The notes below the pieces were generated by a model. That model saw only the letters and a list, made by a program, of their open reading frames with translations, made no database searches and had not been told where the DNA came from. 64,000 nucleotides of DNA from Pyxidicoccus trucidator (GTDB taxonomy: Bacteria > Myxococcota > Myxococcia > Myxococcales > Myxococcaceae): contig NZ_JAAIXZ010000014.1 of NCBI RefSeq assembly GCF_010894435.1, forward strand, positions 1-64,000. Direction: 5' to 3'. Below are positions 115 through 12,739 of the stretch, in pieces. Within the stretch, counting starts at the first letter, position 1; each line of letters starts with the position of its first letter. The position numbers were made by a program, and so were the translations under genes.

Positions 115-1491
115 TTGACGCTCACCGATGGGACGACTACCGATCGGCGGATGCCCACGCAGATGCCCGGTCTCACTGGCGTGGCAGCCCTGACCGCGGG
201 CTCAATTCATTCGTTGGCACTGAAGGCGGACGGCACCGTCTGGGCCTGGGGCTACAATGGGTATGGCCAGCTGGGCAATGGGACAAAAAAACAGGGTTCG
301 ACGCCGACGCAGGTGCCCGGCCTCACCAATGTGGCAGCCTTGGCCGCGGGCTCAAGCCACTCGTTGGCACTGAAGGCGGACGACACTGTCTGGGCCTGGG
401 GCCGGCGGCCGGGATGGTTCCTCGCCCCGATTCTCTCCCAGCTTACGGACTGCCAGAGCATGACCGCAGGCTACCTCTACTCGCTGGCGCTGAAGGCGGA
501 CGCCACCGTCTGGGCTTGGGGCGACAATTCGAACGGCCAGTTGGGTGACGGGGTGCTTCCCGAGCGTGGTGCGCCAAACCAGGTGCCCGGTCTCACTGGC
601 GTGGCAGCCGTGGCCGCGGGCTATCACTACGCGCTGGTGGTGAAGGCGGACGGCACCGTCTGGGCCTGGGGCGACAATGGGTCAGGCCAGCTGGGCGATG
701 GGACGAACACCCAACGGCCGACGCCGACGCAGGTGCCCGGTCTCACCGGCGTGGCGGCCTTGACCGCGGGCTCAAGCCACGCGCTGGCAGTGAAGGCGGA
801 CGGCACCGTCTGGGCCTGGGGCTCCAACACTTCCGGCCAGCTGGGCGATGGGACAAACACCCAGCGGTTGACGCCGACGCAGGTGCTTGACCTCACCGGC
901 GTGGCAGCCGTGGCCGCGGGCGCAAGCCACTCGTTGGCGCTGAAGGCGGACGGCACCGTCTGGGCCTGGGGCACGAATGCGGACGGCCAACTGGGCGATG
1001 GGACAAACACCCAGCGGCTGACGCCCACGCAAGTGCCCGGTCTCGCCGGCGTGGCAGCCCTGGCTGCTGGCCGGTTTTTCTCGCTGGCGCTGAAGGCGGA
1101 CGGCACCCTCTGGGTCTGGGGCGACAATTCGTACAACCAGCTGGGTGATGGGACGCTCACCGATCGTCTGACGCCGACGCAGGTGCCCGGTCTCACCGAC
1201 GTGGTGGCTCTGGCTGCGGGCAACGTCCACTCGCTGGCGGTGAAGGTGGACGGCACCGTCTGGGCCTGGGGCGAGAATGGATACGCCCAGCTGGGTGATG
1301 GGACGTACACCAGCCATAGGAGGCCCACGCAGGTGCCTGGCCTCTCAAGCGTGGTCACCCTGGCCGCGGGCTACCAGCACTCGCTGGCGATGAAGGCGGA
1401 CGGCACCGTCTGGGCCTGGGGCAGTAACCTGGAAGGCCAGCTGGGAAATGGTCGCTCGCAAAGCCAACTGTTCCCGGAGCAAGTCTGGTGA
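115..1491 (+). pseudogene. RCC1-repeat beta-propeller protein, probably lacking its 5' end
   Basis: The frame encodes nine RCC1-type units of about 50 residues, each with the pattern AAGxxHSLALKADGTVWAWG followed by GQLGDGT. RCC1 units form seven-bladed propellers; myxobacterial versions are usually exported proteins with a signal peptide. Here the only usable start, TTG at 115, falls inside a repeat (the first residues match a unit's tail, LTDGT), there is no ribosome binding site before it and no signal peptide. The third unit boundary is 30 bases short and carries an aberrant segment (GRRPGWFLAP). I read this as a 5'-truncated gene or one rearranged by recombination between repeats; an intact cytoplasmic protein is less likely. 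The end at 1491 is a clean stop. Confidence 0.6.
181..1470 (+). repeat. 150-bp tandem repeat encoding RCC1 units
   Basis: Repeat starts fall at 181, 331, 451, 601, 751, 901, 1051, 1201 and 1351. The period is 150 bases except for the 331-451 unit, which is 30 bases (10 codons) short. Blocks such as aaggcggacggcaccgtc are nearly identical at DNA level between units, so unequal recombination is likely. Confidence 0.85.
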
Positions 1492-2202: not shown

Positions 2203-2754
2203 TCAAGGCGCGCTCAAGGCCTGCACGACCAGCACATCCAGCTCGATGACGTCGCCCGGGGCACCCTCGGTGCCCGTCACCTCCACCCACACCCGCTCCG
2301 TTCCGGCCGGGGCCGTCAGCTCGCGAGCAGTTCGAACCCACTCCGCGGAAAGCACCGGGCTGGAGAGCACGTCCGACCGCAGCTCCTCGCCGCTCGCCTC
2401 GAGCCATCTCACCCGCATCTCGGCGACCAGTGAGCGCTCCGGCGTCCCGCGGGCCCAGAAAGAAGCGCGGTGCGCTCCCGCGGATGCGACAAATCCCGGC
2501 GAGTTGTCGAGATGGACGCCCCAGCCGTACAGCTCGGTCACCTCCACGCGCATGCCCGCTTCGCCAGCTCTCGCAGCGGTGGGCTCTCTCGAGACGTTCA
2601 CCGAGTACCAGGGGACCCACTGTCCGAGCCCGGTCTCGAGAGACGCCGTCTCGGCGTCGAGCAGATTGGAGGTGGGGGGATGGTCGATGATGGCAGGCTC
2701 GCAGGCGGTGAGCGCAGCGACCAGCGACAGCACGCTCCAGCGCCCTGGTCTCAT
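2203..2754 (-). CDS. Lipoprotein with a probable galactose-binding-like (CBM) fold
   Basis: A 183-residue predicted lipoprotein: MRPGRWSVLSLVAALTAC is a signal peptide with a lipobox ending at Cys18. The rest resembles a beta-sandwich carbohydrate-binding module, with a GMRVEVTELYGWGVHLDNSP segment and an ASFWARGTPE segment, but no specific family is certain. Its start overlaps the stop of the FecR gene by 4 bases, so it is the third gene of the sigma-FecR-lipoprotein operon. It is probably an envelope output or sensor partner of that module. Confidence 0.75.
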   Translation of the reverse strand: MRPGRWSVLSLVAALTACEPAIIDHPPTSNLLDAETASLETGLGQWVPWYSVNVSREPTAARAGEAGMRVEVTELYGWGVHLDNSPGFVASAGAHRASFWARGTPERSLVAEMRVRWLEASGEELRSDVLSSPVLSAEWVRTARELTAPAGTERVWVEVTGTEGAPGDVIELDVLVVQALSAP

Positions 2755-3785
2755 CGCCCTGTCTCCCCGTCACGGGCCTGACAGGACAGCGTCTCACGGG
2801 CACGCTGGACTGCCTCTGCATAGCGCCCACGCGGGAACTGTCGTTCGTGGCGGGCCCAGTGCGCACAGGCGCGCTGCGCGTCCTTGAGCTGGTGCGTGAG
2901 CAGCGAGCCCAGCTCGAAGCTGAGGCGCTCCCGCGTCGCTATGGGCTGCTTGCGCATCGCCGCCTCGAGGTGCCGCGCCGCTCGCTCGAACTCGTGCCGA
3001 CCGCGAAGGACCTCCAGCTCTCGCAAGACTTCCTCCACGCTCGGGGCACGGCCTGCCGCGGCGGGGGGGCGGGAGGAAGCGACCTCCGGGCTGGGCGGCG
3101 CCGGGGGCTGGGGCGGCTCCGGCTCGGGCGACGCCAGCCCGCGACGTGCTGGCTCGGCGGGTTCGGCCACCGGCCACCCCAACGTCTGCCCCGGCCGAAG
3201 CGGAACCACCTCACCCGTGAGCCGACGGAAGACAATGGCGCCTTCGTGCAGGGTGACCGCTCCTCCCGCTTCCCGCTCCTCCACCGTGAAGCGCGTGCCC
3301 ATGACCTCAATCGCCCCACCCGACACGAGCACGACAGCGGGGGAGGCCCCTGGCTTTCGGCGCTCCACCGAGAACTCCGCGCGGCCGCGGACCAGTCGCA
3401 CCCCCGACGGCTCGCGACGAACGACGAGCGGCCCCAGGTTCCGAAGGGCGAGGCCCCGGGCGTCGTCCACCAGGGCGGCCTCACCCCTCTGGATTTCCAC
3501 CCCCGCGGCGTCTTCCCGCACCCTCAGGTCGGCAGTGGCCTGCGCGACTTCGAGCCCCCCGAGCGAGCGTGCGGACGGAGCGCTCCAGAAGTACACCGCG
3601 AGGGCCAGCGCCGCTGCCGACGCGGCGAGCATCCACCCCACGGGGCGCCTGTACCGTGCCGGCTTCGGCTCGCGGGCGCCCCGCAGCCGAGACTCCAGCC
3701 GGGCCCGGGCGGCCGGGGACATCCCCTGCTCGCGGCGGAGCTGGTCTTCACGCCGGAGCTCGGCGCGGAAGTCACGGGGCTCCAT
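2751..3785 (-). CDS. FecR-family anti-sigma / sigma regulator
   Basis: A 344-residue single-pass inner-membrane protein. A charged cytoplasmic N-terminus (1-47) is followed by a membrane segment (about 48-68, WMLAASAAALALAVYFW) and a periplasmic FecR domain (about 75-215) with GGAIEVMGTRFTVEERE and VTLHEGAIVFRR. A Pro/Glu-rich linker (about 215-250) leads to a helical, TPR-like C-terminus. FecR proteins pass an envelope signal to a cognate ECF sigma factor. The gene overlaps the sigma gene by 14 bases and the downstream lipoprotein by 4, indicating translational coupling. Confidence 0.9.
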   Translation of the reverse strand: MEPRDFRAELRREDQLRREQGMSPAARARLESRLRGAREPKPARYRRPVGWMLAASAAALALAVYFWSAPSARSLGGLEVAQATADLRVREDAAGVEIQRGEAALVDDARGLALRNLGPLVVRREPSGVRLVRGRAEFSVERRKPGASPAVVLVSGGAIEVMGTRFTVEEREAGGAVTLHEGAIVFRRLTGEVVPLRPGQTLGWPVAEPAEPARRGLASPEPEPPQPPAPPSPEVASSRPPAAAGRAPSVEEVLRELEVLRGRHEFERAARHLEAAMRKQPIATRERLSFELGSLLTHQLKDAQRACAHWARHERQFPRGRYAEAVQRARETLSCQARDGETGR

Positions 3786-4332
3786 CGTCCACCTTCCATC
3801 CCCACGCCGCCAGGCGGCCCTGGGCGCGGCTGATCAACTTCGACACGTAGCCCTCCGACAGCGAGAGGAGCTGGGCAATCTCGCGCTGGCTCAGGTCATC
3901 CAGCATCTTCAAACCCATCACCACCCGCTCCTGTCCCGGCAAGCGGTCCAGCGCCGCCGTGGCGCTGCGCACCGCCTCTCGCCGCTCGAGGGCCGCCTCG
4001 GGCGTGGACTCCGTCTCCGTGCGCTGCGACGGAAAGAGGAGGGCGGCGAGGCGCCGTTGAAACGTGTTCTCGCGCCGCAGGGCGGAGAGCGCCACGTTCT
4101 GCGTGACGCGAAACAGCCAGCCCCTCACGTCCTCCTCGCGCAGCCAGGCCCGGTGCTCCCAGGCCTTGAGGAAGACATCGTGCGTCACGTCTTCGGCCCA
4201 GCCCGAGCGGCCCGCCGCATACCGCATGGCCCAGAAGAAGACATCCTCGGCGTGCTCCTCGTAGAGCGTGTCGAACGACACAGGGCGGGCAGGCACGGCA
4301 GGCAGGGCCTTGGAGTGGGGGGCGCGCGACAT
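3772..4332 (-). CDS. ECF-type RNA polymerase sigma factor
   Basis: A 186-residue sigma-70 family protein with only regions 2 and 4. Region 2 (about 20-90) includes YEEHAEDVFFWAMRY and DVTHDVFLKAWEHR. Region 4 (about 120-178) includes LPGQERVVMGLKML, DLSQREIAQLLSLSEGYVSKL and a helix-turn-helix. It heads the operon with the FecR-like regulator. A GGAAAGTTT-N13-CGTAG element lies just upstream at 4374-4348 and an identical arrangement precedes the DUF1592 gene at 5419, so the sigma factor probably drives its own operon and that gene pair. ATG at 4336 is a possible out-of-frame competitor; ATG 4332 gives the family-like protein. Confidence 0.92.
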   Translation of the reverse strand: MSRAPHSKALPAVPARPVSFDTLYEEHAEDVFFWAMRYAAGRSGWAEDVTHDVFLKAWEHRAWLREEDVRGWLFRVTQNVALSALRRENTFQRRLAALLFPSQRTETESTPEAALERREAVRSATAALDRLPGQERVVMGLKMLDDLSQREIAQLLSLSEGYVSKLISRAQGRLAAWGWKVDDGAP

Positions 4333-4347
4333 CCATCACCTGGGCAC

Positions 4348-4374
4348 CTACGGTTGGCGCCGGAGAAACTTTCC
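4348..4374 (-). promoter_or_regulatory. ECF-type promoter of the sigma-FecR operon
   Basis: Read on the minus strand, GGAAAGTTT occupies 4374-4366 and CGTAG 4352-4348, separated by 13 bases. Counting from GGAAA to CGTAG gives 17 bases, usual for ECF -35/-10 elements. The same two blocks with the same spacing occur at 5384-5410 on the plus strand. The predicted start of transcription lies only about 8 bases before the sigma ATG, so the leader is very short. Confidence 0.65.
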
Positions 4375-4381
4375 TCGGAGG

Positions 4382-5299
4382 TTACGGCCACCAGGAGAGG
4401 CTGGCGCCGGTTTCGAGCCTCGCGCCACCCCGCGACCACAGCGTTGCGCCTTCGTTTACATGAGTCACCGGCCTCAGCAGGCCCAGGGCCACGCGCAGCT
4501 CCGCCGCGAGGCGCTCGGTGAACCTCCACCGGAGCTTCATCCGGGCCCAGCCCGCGGGAGACACCTGCGTACCGGACCGGGCCGACACCCAGGAGGCCGC
4601 GAGCTGGAAGGTGTGGAGGACGACGCCCGCGCCCACGCCAGGTTCGAGCTGGAGGCGCTCCGTCGCGGAGAGTCGATAGCTGAAGAAGGCCCCACCTTGC
4701 ACCTCGAGCACGGTCAACTCCGCGCCGCGAGACACCCCGAGCCCCGTCTCCGCCTCGAGGCCGAGCGCCCCCAGGCCGCGCCTGATGGAGAGCAGGAGGT
4801 GTGGGTCGGCGGCGGGTCCACGCCAGAGCGAACCCAGGCCCAGGCTCAGGTCCAGCTCGGAGCTGCGTGGGGCGGAAGCCACCGCCACGGGAGGCTGGGG
4901 CGCGGGCTCGGGAGGCACGGGCGCGGACGGGGGCGGCTCCGGCTCGGGCTTCAGCGCCCGCGCCAGCTCGGAGAGCTTCTGGGCGATCTCCAGATGAAGC
5001 TCCGCGAGCGAACCCCGCCCCACTCGAACGCGCTGCTCGGCCCGTTGCCGCGGCCCGACTGCCTCGAGCCGCAATCCTTCTGGAGCGCGGCTTGCGCGCA
5101 GTCGAAGCTGCGCCGGGCTCTCCGGAGAGACGACCGCGAAGCCCTCCTGTATCAACCGGATCGCCACCTTTCGCTCCAGCTCCACACCGTCCCACCGCCG
5201 ATAGTCCTGGTCGGACAGGGGGCGAAGGTCGAAGGAGACGGACACCGCCGGGGCCTGGGCCAGGAAGACGAGGGAGAGCGCGCTGAGCAGAGCGGTCAT
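4382..5299 (-). CDS. Exported protein with probable C-terminal outer-membrane beta-barrel
   Basis: A 305-residue exported protein. The start at 5299 gives the signal peptide MTALLSALSLVFLAQAPAVS; the in-frame ATG at 5335 would put a polar extension before it. Residues about 20-115 form a mixed alpha/beta periplasmic domain, about 118-145 is a Pro/Glu linker, and about 150-305 alternates as expected for barrel strands, ending in LSWWP with an aromatic near the end. It has no recognised name. Its 3' end lies 8 bases from the sigma operon promoter, so it is transcribed separately but likely belongs to the same envelope module. Confidence 0.65.
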   Translation of the reverse strand: MTALLSALSLVFLAQAPAVSVSFDLRPLSDQDYRRWDGVELERKVAIRLIQEGFAVVSPESPAQLRLRASRAPEGLRLEAVGPRQRAEQRVRVGRGSLAELHLEIAQKLSELARALKPEPEPPPSAPVPPEPAPQPPVAVASAPRSSELDLSLGLGSLWRGPAADPHLLLSIRRGLGALGLEAETGLGVSRGAELTVLEVQGGAFFSYRLSATERLQLEPGVGAGVVLHTFQLAASWVSARSGTQVSPAGWARMKLRWRFTERLAAELRVALGLLRPVTHVNEGATLWSRGGARLETGASLSWWP

Positions 5300-5383
5300 G
5301 CGGTGACAGTGAGAGTACCGCCGACCGTGGATCACAGCCAGCGTCGGCCGCCCGTGCGCTCCGGCTGCCAGCCCTCACGGGGA

Positions 5384-5410
5384 GGAAAGTTTTTTCGGCC
5401 GCGCGCGTAG
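5384..5410 (+). promoter_or_regulatory. ECF-type promoter of the DUF1592-DUF1552 operon
   Basis: GGAAAGTTT at 5384-5392, then 13 bases, then CGTAG at 5406-5410: the same pattern as the promoter of the nearby sigma operon. The predicted transcription start falls about at the ATG at 5419, so the message may be leaderless; no separate ribosome binding site fits between the two. Confidence 0.65.
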
Positions 5411-5418
5411 TGGGGGGC

Positions 5419-7197
5419 ATGACGTTTCCACGCTACGTGAGCCTCCTGCTTCTTTGCGCTGGCGCGGTCGCCTGCTACGGCACCGTCGAGCAATCAGGTC
5501 CCGGCGGAGAAGACGACCCCGCTCCGCCGGCCTCGTCCGCGCCCGTCCCCCCTGCACCGGCGCGGTTCTCCTGCGACGCGAGCGCCGTCCCCGCGGACCT
5601 GCCCTTGCCCAGGCTGTCCCGGACGCAGCTGGCGAACTCGCTTCGCTTCGCCATTGCTCGTGCATTGCCGAACGAGGCGGACGCCCTCTGGGCGGAGCTT
5701 GCGCCCACCTTCGCCCGGTACCCCACGGACCAACGCAAACCCGCGCCCGGTGACTTGAGAGGTGGCTACAGCCGGCTGGACCAGTCCATCCAGCAGTCGC
5801 AGGTGGACGCCATGTACGACGTGGGCGTGGTCATCGCCCGGGAGCTCACGCGGACGCCGGCCCGCCTCGAGGCCGTCCTGGGCCGCTGCGCGACGGACAG
5901 CAACACCTCCAACGACCGCGGCTGCCTGGAGGACTTCATCAAGGGCTGGGGCTCGCGCATCCTGCGCGCTCCTCTGCCCGCGGCGGAGGTGACGTTCCAC
6001 GCGGACATCGCCGGCAACACGCCCGTGGAGCCCGCGGCGGTGGCGGACGTCATCGCCACCCTGCTGAACTCGCCCAGGTTCCTCTACCGCGTGGAGAGCG
6101 GGACCCAGAACGCGGAGGAGGTGAGCCCCCTGTCCGCGTACGAGCTGGCCTCGCGCCTCTCCTACCAGTTCTGGCAGGAGCCACCGGACGACGCCCTCTG
6201 GGCCGCGGCCGCGGGCGGCTCCCTCCTGACGCCCGAGGGCTACGACGCGCGGCTGACGCGGCTGCTGGAGAGCCCGAAGCTGCGCAACTCCCTGGACGAC
6301 TTCATCAGCGAGTGGCTCCGCCTGGAGGAGCTGCCTTCGCTGGTGACGCTGCGGAATGACCCCGTCTACAAGTCCTTCGTCGGCGAGCGAATGCCCACCG
6401 AGGCCACCCGCACCGCCATGCTCGAGGACGTCCGCCGCTCCGCCTGGCAGACGGTGTCCTCCGGCGGCTCGGTGAGCGACTTCCTCTGGGACAGGCACTC
6501 GTACACGGACGACCCCTTCCTCGCCGCCGTCTACGACGTGCCCGTCTGGAACGGGACGGGGCCGGCCCCCGTCATGCCCTCCACGCGCCGCAGCGGCCTC
6601 TTGACGCGCGCCGCGCTGCTGGCCACGGGGACCGCCTCCACGCGGCCCATCCACAAGGGCTACCTGGTGCGCAACGCGCTGCTGTGCCAGCAGGTGGGCG
6701 CGCCACCGCCCAACGCCACCGACACGCCGCCCGTCCCCACGGCCACCATCACCACGCGCGAGGCCGTGACGGCGATGACGTCCACCGCCGCCTGTCGGGG
6801 TTGCCACAAGGCGACCATCAACCCGCAGGGCTTCGTGCTGGAGGGCTTCGACGCGCTGGGGCGTGAGCGCCTCCAGGAGCGCCTCTTCGACGCGCAGGGC
6901 CACGAGACGGGCGCCCCCACGGTGGACACCGTGGCCGAGGTGCACGTCTACGACGACGAGTTCCGCGTGCTCGACAGCGCGGTGGGGCTCACCCAGGCCA
7001 TCGACGACAGCCAGCTGATGGAGTCCTGCCTGGCGCGCAACTACTTCCGCTTCGCCCACGCGCGCGTTGAGTCAGAGGAGCGCGACGGGTGCCTGCTCGC
7101 CGAGTTGGAGCAGGTGACCCGCGGCGGCGCCCCGCTGGCGGAACTCTTGAGGAAGGTAGCCCACCATCCCAGCTTCAAGCAGAGGAGGTTCCAGTGA
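5419..7197 (+). CDS. DUF1592/DUF1588/DUF1585 multidomain lipoprotein
   Basis: A 592-residue predicted lipoprotein with a lipobox (AVAC) about 20 residues from the ATG at 5419; the in-frame GTG at 5410 lies inside the promoter and is rejected. The central region matches the DUF1592-DUF1588 arrangement known from planctomycetes and myxobacteria (SPLSAYELASRLSYQFWQ, FISEWLRLEELP). Near residue 455 is CRGCH, a CxxCH haem-attachment-like motif, followed by INPQGFVLEGFDALGR and a DUF1585-like tail. These proteins are always paired with DUF1552 proteins and their biochemical role is unknown. The stop overlaps the DUF1552 start by 4 bases. Confidence 0.88.
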   Translation: MTFPRYVSLLLLCAGAVACYGTVEQSGPGGEDDPAPPASSAPVPPAPARFSCDASAVPADLPLPRLSRTQLANSLRFAIARALPNEADALWAELAPTFARYPTDQRKPAPGDLRGGYSRLDQSIQQSQVDAMYDVGVVIARELTRTPARLEAVLGRCATDSNTSNDRGCLEDFIKGWGSRILRAPLPAAEVTFHADIAGNTPVEPAAVADVIATLLNSPRFLYRVESGTQNAEEVSPLSAYELASRLSYQFWQEPPDDALWAAAAGGSLLTPEGYDARLTRLLESPKLRNSLDDFISEWLRLEELPSLVTLRNDPVYKSFVGERMPTEATRTAMLEDVRRSAWQTVSSGGSVSDFLWDRHSYTDDPFLAAVYDVPVWNGTGPAPVMPSTRRSGLLTRAALLATGTASTRPIHKGYLVRNALLCQQVGAPPPNATDTPPVPTATITTREAVTAMTSTAACRGCHKATINPQGFVLEGFDALGRERLQERLFDAQGHETGAPTVDTVAEVHVYDDEFRVLDSAVGLTQAIDDSQLMESCLARNYFRFAHARVESEERDGCLLAELEQVTRGGAPLAELLRKVAHHPSFKQRRFQ

Positions 7198-8813
7198 AGA
7201 AGACTCAGGACCCGGGTGTCTTCAGGGTCGACAGGCGCCAGTTCCTTCGCGGTACGGGCGGGGCGATTTTGGCTCTGCCGCTGCTGCCCTCGCTGCTGAG
7301 CGCCCGCGAAGCGAAGGCGGCGGAGACCCAGCGGCCCAAGTGCTTCGTGCACGTGCGCACGCCGCATGGCGCCATCCTCACCTCCAACATGTGGCCGGGG
7401 GCCTCGGCCCTGAGCGAGACGCTCCGCTATGCGGGCCACGACGTGCGGCGCGGGAGCCTGACGGCCCCGGTGAACGCGAGCGGCGAGGCGGTCATCAGTC
7501 GGGCACTGACGGCGAAGTCGAGCGTCCTGACGCCGAGCCTGGTGTCGAAGATGAACATCCTGCGCGGGCTCGACTACCCCTTGTACATGGGGCACAACTT
7601 CGGCGCCGCCCTGGGCTACTACGACGAAGACAAGGGCCGGCCCGGCTCGCCGCGGGCGACGATTGACCAGCTCATGGCCTACTCCCCGGCCTTCTATCCG
7701 AGCGTCGCCTCGGTGCGGAAGCGCAGCGTGGTCCTCGCCAGCTCGGGGACGTCGAGCGGGAGCTGGGGTTACAACACGCCGGGGGTCCGCTCCTCCGGTG
7801 TGGCCGCGAGCGACGTCAGCGCCATCGAGAGCTCGTTGGCTCTCTTCGACATGCTGCTCGCGGGCGCAGGGGAGGGCACCCACCCGAGCCGGCCCCCGGT
7901 GGTGGACCGCATCCTCGAGAGCTACCGCCGGCTCCGCAACGGCAACAGCCGGCTGTCCGCGGAGGACAAGGTGCGGCTGGACCAGCACATCCACGCGGTG
8001 GCTGAGCTGCAGCGCCGCCTGGGCACCGTCGTGCACGAGGCCTGCCAGGTGCCCGCCCGGCCGACGACGGACAACCTCACCCTGAAGCGCTCGGCCTCGT
8101 TCGCGGGGGACCCGGCGAAGAACGTCGAGTACTTCCGGCTCCTCAACGAGGTGCTCGCGGTGGCGATGAGCTGTGGCACCTGCCGCGTGGCCACCCTCAC
8201 CATTGACGAGAACAACCAGAACCTCACCTTCACCACTCGCGCCCCGCAGGGGGAGGACTGGCACAACAACGTCGTGCACCCGTCCACCGCCCCCGGCGAC
8301 GAGCAGGACCTGGTGGTCCAGTTCAACAAGGTGTTCTTCTCGGAAGTCTTCCTGGACCTCGTCGGCCGCTTCGAGAGCATCTCCAACGGCGTGGGCGGCA
8401 CGCTGCTGGACGACTCGCTGGTGGCGTGGGGCCAGGAGAACGGCAACTACCCCCACTACTCCTTCTCGGTGCCGGTGGTGACCGCCGGTAGTGCCGGAGG
8501 CGCCCTGAAGACCGGCAACTACTGCGACTACCGGAACCTCAACTACAACCTGGCCGGCAGGAACAGCCCCGAGGACGAGTCCTTGTGGCCGGGTCTGCTC
8601 TTCAACCAGTGGCTCGGCACGGCCCTCCAGGCGATGGGCATCCCCCACGCAGAGTGGCGCGAGGAGGACCACCCCGGCTTCGGCTGGAAGACCACGTACC
8701 AGTCCCAGTACGCGTACTTCTTCACGAACACGGGCCTGACGGCCGACAAGGTCTACCACTCGGAGCTGTGGGCCAAGACGGGCGAGATTCTGCCGTTCCT
8801 CGCGCCGACGTAG
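7194..8813 (+). CDS. DUF1552 family Tat-exported protein
   Basis: A 539-residue protein. The GTG at 7194 overlaps the upstream stop (GTGA) and is preceded by AGGAGG, so it is preferred over further-upstream starts inside the DUF1592 gene. Residues about 13-45 form a Tat signal: DRRQFLRGTGGAILALPLLP then LLSAREAKA. The body has DUF1552 features, including FVHVRTPHGAILTSNMWP, VRLDQHIHAVAELQRRL, LLDDSLVAWGQENGNYPHYS and a late NQWLGTALQAMGIP. It belongs to the alkaline-phosphatase-like DUF1501/1552 group by general similarity, but a reaction is not established. It forms one transcription unit with the DUF1592 gene. Confidence 0.9.
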   Translation: MKKTQDPGVFRVDRRQFLRGTGGAILALPLLPSLLSAREAKAAETQRPKCFVHVRTPHGAILTSNMWPGASALSETLRYAGHDVRRGSLTAPVNASGEAVISRALTAKSSVLTPSLVSKMNILRGLDYPLYMGHNFGAALGYYDEDKGRPGSPRATIDQLMAYSPAFYPSVASVRKRSVVLASSGTSSGSWGYNTPGVRSSGVAASDVSAIESSLALFDMLLAGAGEGTHPSRPPVVDRILESYRRLRNGNSRLSAEDKVRLDQHIHAVAELQRRLGTVVHEACQVPARPTTDNLTLKRSASFAGDPAKNVEYFRLLNEVLAVAMSCGTCRVATLTIDENNQNLTFTTRAPQGEDWHNNVVHPSTAPGDEQDLVVQFNKVFFSEVFLDLVGRFESISNGVGGTLLDDSLVAWGQENGNYPHYSFSVPVVTAGSAGGALKTGNYCDYRNLNYNLAGRNSPEDESLWPGLLFNQWLGTALQAMGIPHAEWREEDHPGFGWKTTYQSQYAYFFTNTGLTADKVYHSELWAKTGEILPFLAPT

Positions 8814-11219: not shown

Positions 11220-11893
11220 GAGGAAACGAGAGGGGATTCGCGGTCAGCCGGAGGGCCGGCGCGTTGACGTTCAGCAACGAAGTGGGGCGGAACAGGGAGC
11301 GGGGCTAAGAGCGGGGCAGGGCTAACCCGTGAGACTCACTCTGGAGTTTGGCGGCCTGCCCCGCTGCCCCGGCGCCCCGGCGGAATACACACGAGTCCAA
11401 GCAGGAGGAATGAGAGGAATTGAATGACTGGCAATTGTCGCCTTGGGGGTTGTGTTCCTCTTCCTCTCTCTCTTCTCTGAAACAGGCGGGGCAGGCGGGG
11501 CCGCGAGACGAAGGCGTGTAAAAGAGTTGTGGTCTCGGGCACTTGGCGTGGTGGGGGCTGCCCCGCTTCGCGCCCCGGTGTGGCGAGGCAGCGGGGCCAA
11601 GGGCATGTGGTCGGGGCAGCACGCCTGAAGGCTGCGCGTCCCCACGTACTGCTGCGCCCGTCGCCGTGGGCGGACTTCTTCAAGACGTGCCTGGGCGCGC
11701 CCCGCAGGAGGCCGAGTGACCGGTCAGCCGCCGCGACCTTCCCCTCGAGGTCCAGCACGCCCAGCGAAGCGAGTCTCGCGCCAGCCAGACGTACAAGGCC
11801 TTCCTCGACCACCTGTGCCCCGCGCTTGTTGTGATGGGGCCACGTGGACAAGGTGCGATTGCAGGAACGTGCTCCCCGGCCACGGAGGTGACC
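11220..11893. other. Non-coding region with long-range inverted repeats before the SIR2 gene
   Basis: No convincing gene is seen. GCCTGCCCCGC at 11354-11364 is matched by its exact complement GCGGGGCAGGC at 11484-11494. Inside this loop a purine-rich stretch (about 11400-11418) faces a pyrimidine-rich stretch (about 11455-11478), including GAGAGGA/TCCTCTC. This could fold as an RNA of about 150 nt. The last 200 bases before the SIR2 gene read weakly coding-like in one frame (SQTYKAFLDHLCPALVVMG) but have no start; they may be debris of a lost gene plus the SIR2 promoter. Confidence 0.4.
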
Positions 11894-12739
11894 ATGGCGG
11901 TTCTCGAGCTGCCCCAGGCCGCGCCATTGCTCCAGCAGGAATACCGGGAAGGCCGGCTCATTCCCTTTCTGGGCGCGGGCTTCTCCAAGCCGCTGCACCT
12001 GCCGGACTGGAGCGAGCTCATCGCGTCCATGGCGGAGCCGCTGGGCTTCGAGCCGGAGTTGTTCATGGACCATGGCAGCGCCGAGCAGCTCGCGGAGTTC
12101 TTCTCCGTGGCGCACCCGAACAACTTCGAGCGCCTCGTCTATGGCATGGCGCGGAAGTTCAACTCGGAAGAGGCCAGCCAGCTCCGCAAGGTCTCTCCCA
12201 CGCACAAGGCCCTGGCCCTCCTCGACCAGTGGCACACCATCTACACGACCAACTTCGACTGCCACATCGAGCACGCGCTCAGGGATGCGGGAAGGAAGGT
12301 CTCCGTGCTGGCCTCCTTCGTGGACTTCCAGGACAAGCAGGAGGCCGGTGCCTGCGATGTCATCAAGTTCCACGGCACGCTGGAGATCCGCAACACCATC
12401 ATCCTGACGGAGAGCGGCTTCTTCGACCGGATGGCGCTGGAGGATGCCGCGGACCAGCGACTGCGGGCAGACCTGCTCAGCCACAGCTTCCTGTTCATCG
12501 GCTACAGCTTCAGCGACATGAACATCCGCTACATCTGGTACCGCATGCACCAGCTTCGCCAGCGCAGCCAGGCCGGAAGCCGCGCTCCGCTGACGCCTCG
12601 CAAGTGCTTCTTCGCCACGCATGGCGCCGGGCCGGTCCAGCCGATGCTGCTCGAGCAGTGGAACGTCGACGTCATCCAGCTCGACCCGGAGGACAAGACC
12701 GCAAGCGTCGCGGAGCTCCTGAGGAGTATCGGCGGATGA
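11894..12739 (+). CDS. SIR2-family NADase-like protein (KomC-like defence effector candidate)
   Basis: A 281-residue cytoplasmic protein of the SIR2-like (SIR2_2) type used as an NAD+-degrading effector in phage defence. Motifs are intact: FLGAGFS at 25-31 for NAD binding, TTNFD with Asn120, KFHG with the catalytic-type His160, and GYSFSD at 203-208. The ATG at 11894 is preceded by GGAGG and gives a start close to the first motif; the frame continues upstream without a better site. A HAM1/ITPase-like gene starts 28 bases downstream on the same strand. The pair matches the KomC-KomB core of the Kongming system, in which a HAM1 protein senses dITP and switches on the SIR2 NADase. No adenosine-deaminase (KomA) gene is adjacent. 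Confidence 0.85.
   Translation: MAVLELPQAAPLLQQEYREGRLIPFLGAGFSKPLHLPDWSELIASMAEPLGFEPELFMDHGSAEQLAEFFSVAHPNNFERLVYGMARKFNSEEASQLRKVSPTHKALALLDQWHTIYTTNFDCHIEHALRDAGRKVSVLASFVDFQDKQEAGACDVIKFHGTLEIRNTIILTESGFFDRMALEDAADQRLRADLLSHSFLFIGYSFSDMNIRYIWYRMHQLRQRSQAGSRAPLTPRKCFFATHGAGPVQPMLLEQWNVDVIQLDPEDKTASVAELLRSIGG

Follow-up and report, generated by a model that had tools for sequence, protein, structure and literature searches.

Canonical ECF operons encode a two-domain sigma factor together with a membrane anti-sigma factor, are positively autoregulated and use promoters with a CGT-containing -10 element, FecI-like sigma factors being the stated exception to autoregulation (PMC8103513). Cytochromes with DUF1592 and DUF1588 domains and proteins of the DUF1552 family are functionally uncharacterized, although genomes of Planctomycetes, Verrucomicrobia and myxobacteria encode them, frequently more than once; no regulator of DUF1592 or DUF1552 was found in open-licence papers. 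In the ECF/FecR-type systems of Bacteroides and in the clostridial SigI-RsgI systems, membrane anti-sigma factors and carbohydrate-binding modules gate the expression of glycan-degrading genes. Here, an ECF sigma factor gene with a FecR-type partner is described that lies close to a DUF1592-DUF1552 gene pair and appears to share its promoter pattern. The window, that is, the whole stretch of 64,000 nucleotides that was analysed, belongs to a genome of 12.67 Mb in 136 contigs that groups with the Myxococcaceae, and the same locus was found in the named relatives Pyxidicoccus caerfyrddinensis, Myxococcus qinghaiensis, M. llanfairpwll..., M. dinghuensis, Citreicoccus inhibens and Archangium lansinium.

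Organization of the locus

The features of the locus, in window coordinates, are the following.

2203..2754, minus strand: lipoprotein of 183 aa (lipobox LTAC), all-beta, with a predicted CBM-like fold (AlphaFold, Foldseek)
2751..3785, minus strand: FecR-type putative anti-sigma protein of 344 aa (Pfam FecR, PF04773, 2.5e-6)
3772..4332, minus strand: ECF sigma factor of 186 aa (Pfam Sigma70_r2 1.7e-12 and Sigma70_r4_2 1.3e-9; NCBIfam sigma70-ECF 4e-25)
4348..4374, minus strand: predicted ECF promoter of the sigma operon (-35 GGAAAGT at 4374-4368, -10 CGTAG at 4352-4348, 15-nt spacer)
4382..5299, minus strand: predicted outer-membrane barrel protein (AlphaFold, Foldseek, conservation)
5384..5410, plus strand: predicted ECF promoter of the DUF1592-DUF1552 operon (-35 GGAAAGT at 5384-5390, -10 CGTAG at 5406-5410)
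5419..7197, plus strand: DUF1592 lipoprotein of 592 aa with the domain order DUF1595-DUF1592-DUF1588-DUF1585 (Pfam)
7194..8813, plus strand: DUF1552 (HXXSHH) protein of 539 aa (Pfam 1.3e-19)

The sigma factor consists of regions 2 and 4 only (Pfam) and starts at the ATG at 4332. Its gene overlaps that of the FecR-type protein by 14 nt, which in turn overlaps the lipoprotein gene by 4 nt, so that the three genes have the appearance of an operon. The family of the FecR-type protein (Pfam match), its single predicted transmembrane segment (about residues 43-67, by eye) and the coupling of its gene to that of the sigma factor identify it as a putative anti-sigma factor. The DUF1592-DUF1552 genes are divergent from the barrel gene, whose open reading frame can alternatively be read from 5335. 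The DUF1592 lipoprotein starts at the ATG at 5419 and carries one CxxCH haem motif, CRGCH, in its DUF1588 region, its DUF1585 match falling below the curated Pfam cut-off; the adjoining DUF1552 gene overlaps it by 4 nt and encodes a protein with a Tat-like signal, DRRQFLRG. Elsewhere in the window, an ORF with RCC1-like repeats (115-1491, plus strand) adjoins the cluster, with neither the shared promoter motif before it nor an NCBIfam match, and an ORF at 11831-12739 (plus strand) has the look of a SIR2-type domain (LIPFLGAGFSKP), by eye only.

Two matching putative promoter sites

A preliminary description of this DNA had noted the pattern GGAAAGTTT-N13-CGTAG on opposite strands before the sigma gene and the DUF1592 gene, and both occurrences were recovered with zero mismatches and equal spacing, within GGAAAGTTTCTCCGGCGCCAACCGTAG at 4374-4348 (minus strand) and GGAAAGTTTTTTCGGCCGCGCGCGTAG at 5384-5410 (plus strand). 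Its remark that the two sites have little else in common was too strict, since the likeness is slightly wider: GAGGAAAGTTT is common to both, and the best ungapped alignment has identity at 20 of 27 positions. Counted from the first G of the -35 element, the ATG lies at a distance of 42 nt in the sigma gene and of 35 nt in the DUF1592 gene. With the usual geometry of ECF promoters, which was used to place the transcript start, the latter distance puts the start of the DUF1592 transcript about 2-3 nt before the AUG, and the DUF1592 mRNA would thus be nearly leaderless.

Pattern searches of the whole genome returned two exact matches of GGAAAGTTT-N13-CGTAG in 12.67 Mb, both at this locus and each directly upstream of a start codon, and the motif is therefore not one that is common at random places. 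The core pattern GGAAAGT-N15-CGTAG likewise matched these two sites only. Two further sites were found when one mismatch to GGAAAGTTT-N13-CGTAG was allowed, and both were rejected as promoters, the one at L003 lying inside the coding start of a PspA-like gene and the one at L004 facing a convergent gene at its 3' end. The relaxed pattern GGAAAG-N16-CGTRG gave mostly chance-looking matches and was left aside in defining the regulon. When two 100-nt upstream regions were dinucleotide-shuffled, a shared 9-mer and 5-mer at equal spacer arose in 66 of 100,000 trials; the pair of sites taken alone is thus unlikely, yet could still be due to chance, and it is the comparison across genomes that decides.

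Conservation and specificity across the family

The family survey covered 96 genomes, 21 of which carry the close sigma factor or its Archangium form. The core motif matched 51 times in these 21 genomes, versus six matches of a reversed-pattern control, and 19 times in the 75 other genomes, versus 35 for the control. All but four of the 51 matches (47/51) lie at four kinds of gene, namely the sigma gene (20), DUF1592 (18), an apiosidase-like lipoprotein (7) and a beta-propeller-like lipoprotein (2). No GGAAA-N17-[CG]GTR site was found near 13 DUF1592 copies unlinked to the sigma gene, four in the genome of the window and nine elsewhere, and the four other copies of this genome are probably outside the control of this sigma factor.

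Twenty family genomes, including that of the window, encode a sigma orthologue of 83-96 % identity, and close DUF1592 orthologues (68-75 %) occur in exactly these 20. Conservation of the motif at orthologous loci, which the preliminary description had proposed as a check, was borne out at both genes: GGAAAGT-N15-CGTAG precedes the sigma gene in 20/20 genomes, and the DUF1592 site has GGAAAGT and an equally spaced -10 element in 20/20, the latter being CGTAG in 17 and AGTAG in three. Across these orthologues the spacers and flanks drift while the half-sites are nearly invariant, with 12/12 half-site, 3/15 spacer and 0/11 upstream columns unchanged at the sigma promoter and 11/12, 4/15 and 0/11, respectively, at the DUF1592 promoter. 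The start codon lies 42 nt from the first G in 18/20 sigma genes and 35 nt from it in 19/20 DUF1592 genes. Within the sigma clade the recognition stretch of region 4, SEGYVSKL, hardly varies, which is consistent with a constant -35 element.

The motif is also kept where the locus has been rearranged. In Archangium lansinium (G058; loci L066 and L165) the sigma factor is 68 % identical, whereas the DUF1592-DUF1552 pair is only 40-43 % identical, lies on the opposite side of the cluster and includes a DUF1592 protein of a separate lineage in the tree. This DUF1592 gene is preceded by GGAAAGTTTGTTGGGCCTCGTTCGTAG, an exact match to the motif. Upstream of the Archangium sigma gene, only a degenerate site (GGGGA-N17-CGTGG) is present, which makes self-activation of the sigma factor uncertain in this species. 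Together, the comparison shows that the sigma operon and the DUF pair have predicted promoters of a common class.

Further predicted targets and distant relatives

The apiosidase-like lipoprotein (Pfam Apiosidase, PF13204, 1.1e-32, and Collagen_bind_2) is encoded in 7/96 genomes; all seven carry the sigma factor and have the promoter site before the gene (7/7 each), and the genome of the window does not encode it. These seven are relatives of one genus and do not count as seven independent events. In several of them (L147 5987, L149 6034 on the minus strand, L150 6061, L145 5275 and relatives), part of the leader of the apiosidase-like gene is similar to the beginning of the coding sequence of Archangium DUF1592 (MRFDRK..INACW). 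Such a remnant points to a promoter that persisted after its DUF1592 gene was lost and that the apiosidase-like gene may then have taken over. In two genomes with the sigma factor (L148 5057 and L152 5483, both plus strand), a site of sequence GGAAAGTCCGCCACCGCTCATGCGTAG lies before the gene of a propeller-like lipoprotein of 464 aa.

Distant homologues of the sigma factor (42-51 %) in other Myxococcota adjoin a FecR gene and mostly a barrel gene too. Most of these sigma genes are preceded by GGAAA-N17-CGTG or GGTGA, and at most of them the distance from the -35 element to the AUG is short (34-38 nt). An unusual -10 element (CTCGCGGGTGA) is found both at the sigma promoter and at a second site in two loci, L168/L075 and L169/L073, the second sites (L168 4780 and L169 11616, both plus strand) lying before a gene for an Ala/Asp/Gly-rich lipoprotein directly after the FecR gene. 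In L068 and L072, CGTG sites precede the sigma gene and also a divergent pair of genes for an FAD oxidoreductase and a secreted propeller protein. The divergent GGAAA-N17-CGTG sites in these distant-sigma genomes lie close together (L068 12166 minus/12197 plus; L072 5803 minus/5816 plus) and face an FAD-dependent oxidoreductase, followed in L068 by a CrtC-type lipocalin, and a secreted BNR-like propeller protein. Among the distant relatives, the -10 variant changes together at the sigma gene and at other local targets, being GGTGA at both sites in two loci and CGTG in others. Matching -10 variants with differing targets suggest that the promoter code moves with the sigma factor while the targets change, and the clade would then illustrate an ECF regulator that keeps its promoter code as the DUF pair, the apiosidase-like protein and the FAD oxidoreductase with beta-propeller are exchanged.

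Alternative explanations

The genome of the window has about 25 ECF-like matches, and another ECF sigma factor of the cell might read both promoters, the linked sigma gene being merely a downstream target. Such an arrangement is improbable, as the motif and the linked sigma factor co-occur across the 96 genomes, the site is present wherever the clade of this sigma factor sits, and the -10 variants change jointly at the sigma gene and its targets; moreover, the genome contains no second close member of the clade, a single match being obtained at E <= 1e-20. It could also be argued that the sigma factor reads its own promoter only and that the DUF1592 site is a relic, the pair being expressed from a housekeeping promoter, and the deviation of three of the 20 DUF1592 sites at a single -10 base (AGTAG) speaks for this view. 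The invariance of 11 of the 12 half-site columns, the distance to the ATG fixed in 19/20 and the retention of an exact site after rearrangement in Archangium make a relic very unlikely.

The proximity of the two sites (about 1 kb), their inverted orientation and their identity at up to 20 of 27 positions speak for a recent inverted duplication by recombination, free of any shared function. This explanation is scarcely credible, since the two sites are unlike in spacer and flanks, which in 20 genomes have changed independently around fixed half-sites, and since the motif also stands before the moved Archangium pair and before unrelated genes elsewhere. The uniqueness of the motif, its conservation at both genes and the rearranged locus all support the earlier proposal that the sigma factor controls itself and the DUF1592-DUF1552 operon. 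Both sites are therefore best read as predicted promoters of the linked ECF sigma factor (3772-4332), a regulatory link to which a probability of about 0.9 is assigned.

A putative signalling mechanism

The barrel protein has a signal peptide, an N-terminal periplasmic domain, a Pro-rich linker and an 8-stranded beta-barrel in its AlphaFold model (pLDDT about 90 for the barrel but low for the N-terminal domain), which resembles OmpA, NspA and OmpW in Foldseek; Pfam and NCBIfam searches of the protein gave no match. Its N-terminal domain is conserved, and the gene is kept beside the sigma gene in distant relatives. These features, a predicted 8-strand outer-membrane barrel, the conserved domain and the retention next to the sigma gene, make the barrel protein a plausible candidate for the sensor that supplies the signal. 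The lipoprotein at 2203..2754 is modelled with a pLDDT of 62 overall and about 70-90 in its C-terminal core, and from this moderate-confidence model Foldseek returned CBM4, CBM16, CBM22 and CBM61 at E values of 4e-7 to 5e-5; for the family of this lipoprotein, Pfam and NCBIfam gave no more than weak CBM matches, such as CBM_6/CBM_4_9 in an orthologue. It is considered CBM-like by fold with moderate confidence.

At rest, the FecR-type protein with its single membrane pass would, as expected from its family, tether the sigma factor to the inner membrane. Release of the sigma factor would follow a signal from the surface or the periplasm, for which the adjoining barrel protein is the most likely sensor. 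From GGAAAGT-N15-CGTAG the freed sigma factor may then activate its own operon (sigma, FecR and CBM-like lipoprotein), providing positive feedback, as well as the divergent DUF1592-DUF1552 operon, whose predicted products would be a c-type cytochrome in lipoprotein form and a DUF1552 protein exported via Tat. A carbohydrate role has been suggested for PSCyt proteins (PMC5615132). This suggestion, the CBM-like lipoprotein and the apiosidase-like target point to a polysaccharide as the most likely signal, and the system might respond to polysaccharide, perhaps of plants, with the DUF pair taking part in its oxidative processing. As this reading draws on a resemblance in fold and on a target that just seven genomes encode, that of the window not among them, it is regarded as possible, somewhat short of an even chance. 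The full picture is put forward tentatively, the odds leaning against it: an autoregulated ECF system of the FecR type, not described before, whose components include a CBM-like lipoprotein and, as sensor, an OmpA-like barrel, would detect a plant polysaccharide and switch on the haem lipoprotein and the DUF1552 protein for an oxidative attack on it. If true, the DUF1592-DUF1552 families would have a part in the extracellular oxidation of glycans. A sigma factor that switches on one DUF pair would also offer a direct experimental handle on the role of a widespread gene pair.

Comparison with described systems

The locus resembles the FecI-FecR-FecA system of E. coli and relatives in that an ECF sigma factor lies beside a FecR-type inner-membrane protein, with an outer-membrane barrel gene alongside and an adjacent target operon. 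Unlike FecA, however, the barrel is predicted to be 8-stranded and OmpA-like rather than a TonB-dependent receptor, and no Pfam receptor domain was found in this neighbouring barrel protein. The same promoter precedes the sigma gene and its target here, so that the sigma factor is apparently autoregulated, and a cytochrome-DUF1552 pair takes the place of iron transport as the target. Given apparent autoregulation and a barrel other than a TonB-dependent receptor, the system is assigned to the broad ECF/anti-sigma kind and not to FecIRA. With RpoE-type autoregulated operons it shares a two-domain sigma factor, a co-encoded putative membrane anti-sigma factor, a conserved promoter before its own gene and CGT in the -10 element, whereas its -35 element is GGAAAG, not an AAC-containing box, and its regulon in this genome is narrow, with only local sites at the stringency used.

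The Bacteroides ECF/FecR-type and SigI-RsgI systems differ in that the CBM-like domain here is a separate lipoprotein and the protein families are different; no SusCD transporter was found among the neighbouring genes examined. The genes for planctomycete-specific cytochromes (PSCyt3/PSD) of Verrucomicrobia and Planctomycetes have the same DUF1592/1588/1595/1585 set beside a partner gene, and the present pair has the features of that type, namely DUF1592, DUF1588, the CxxCH motif and an adjacent DUF1552 gene. Those genes have no assigned regulator, whereas here a regulator is assigned, with a CBM-like lipoprotein in its operon, and the DUF pair is a predicted, previously unassigned target of an ECF/anti-sigma system.
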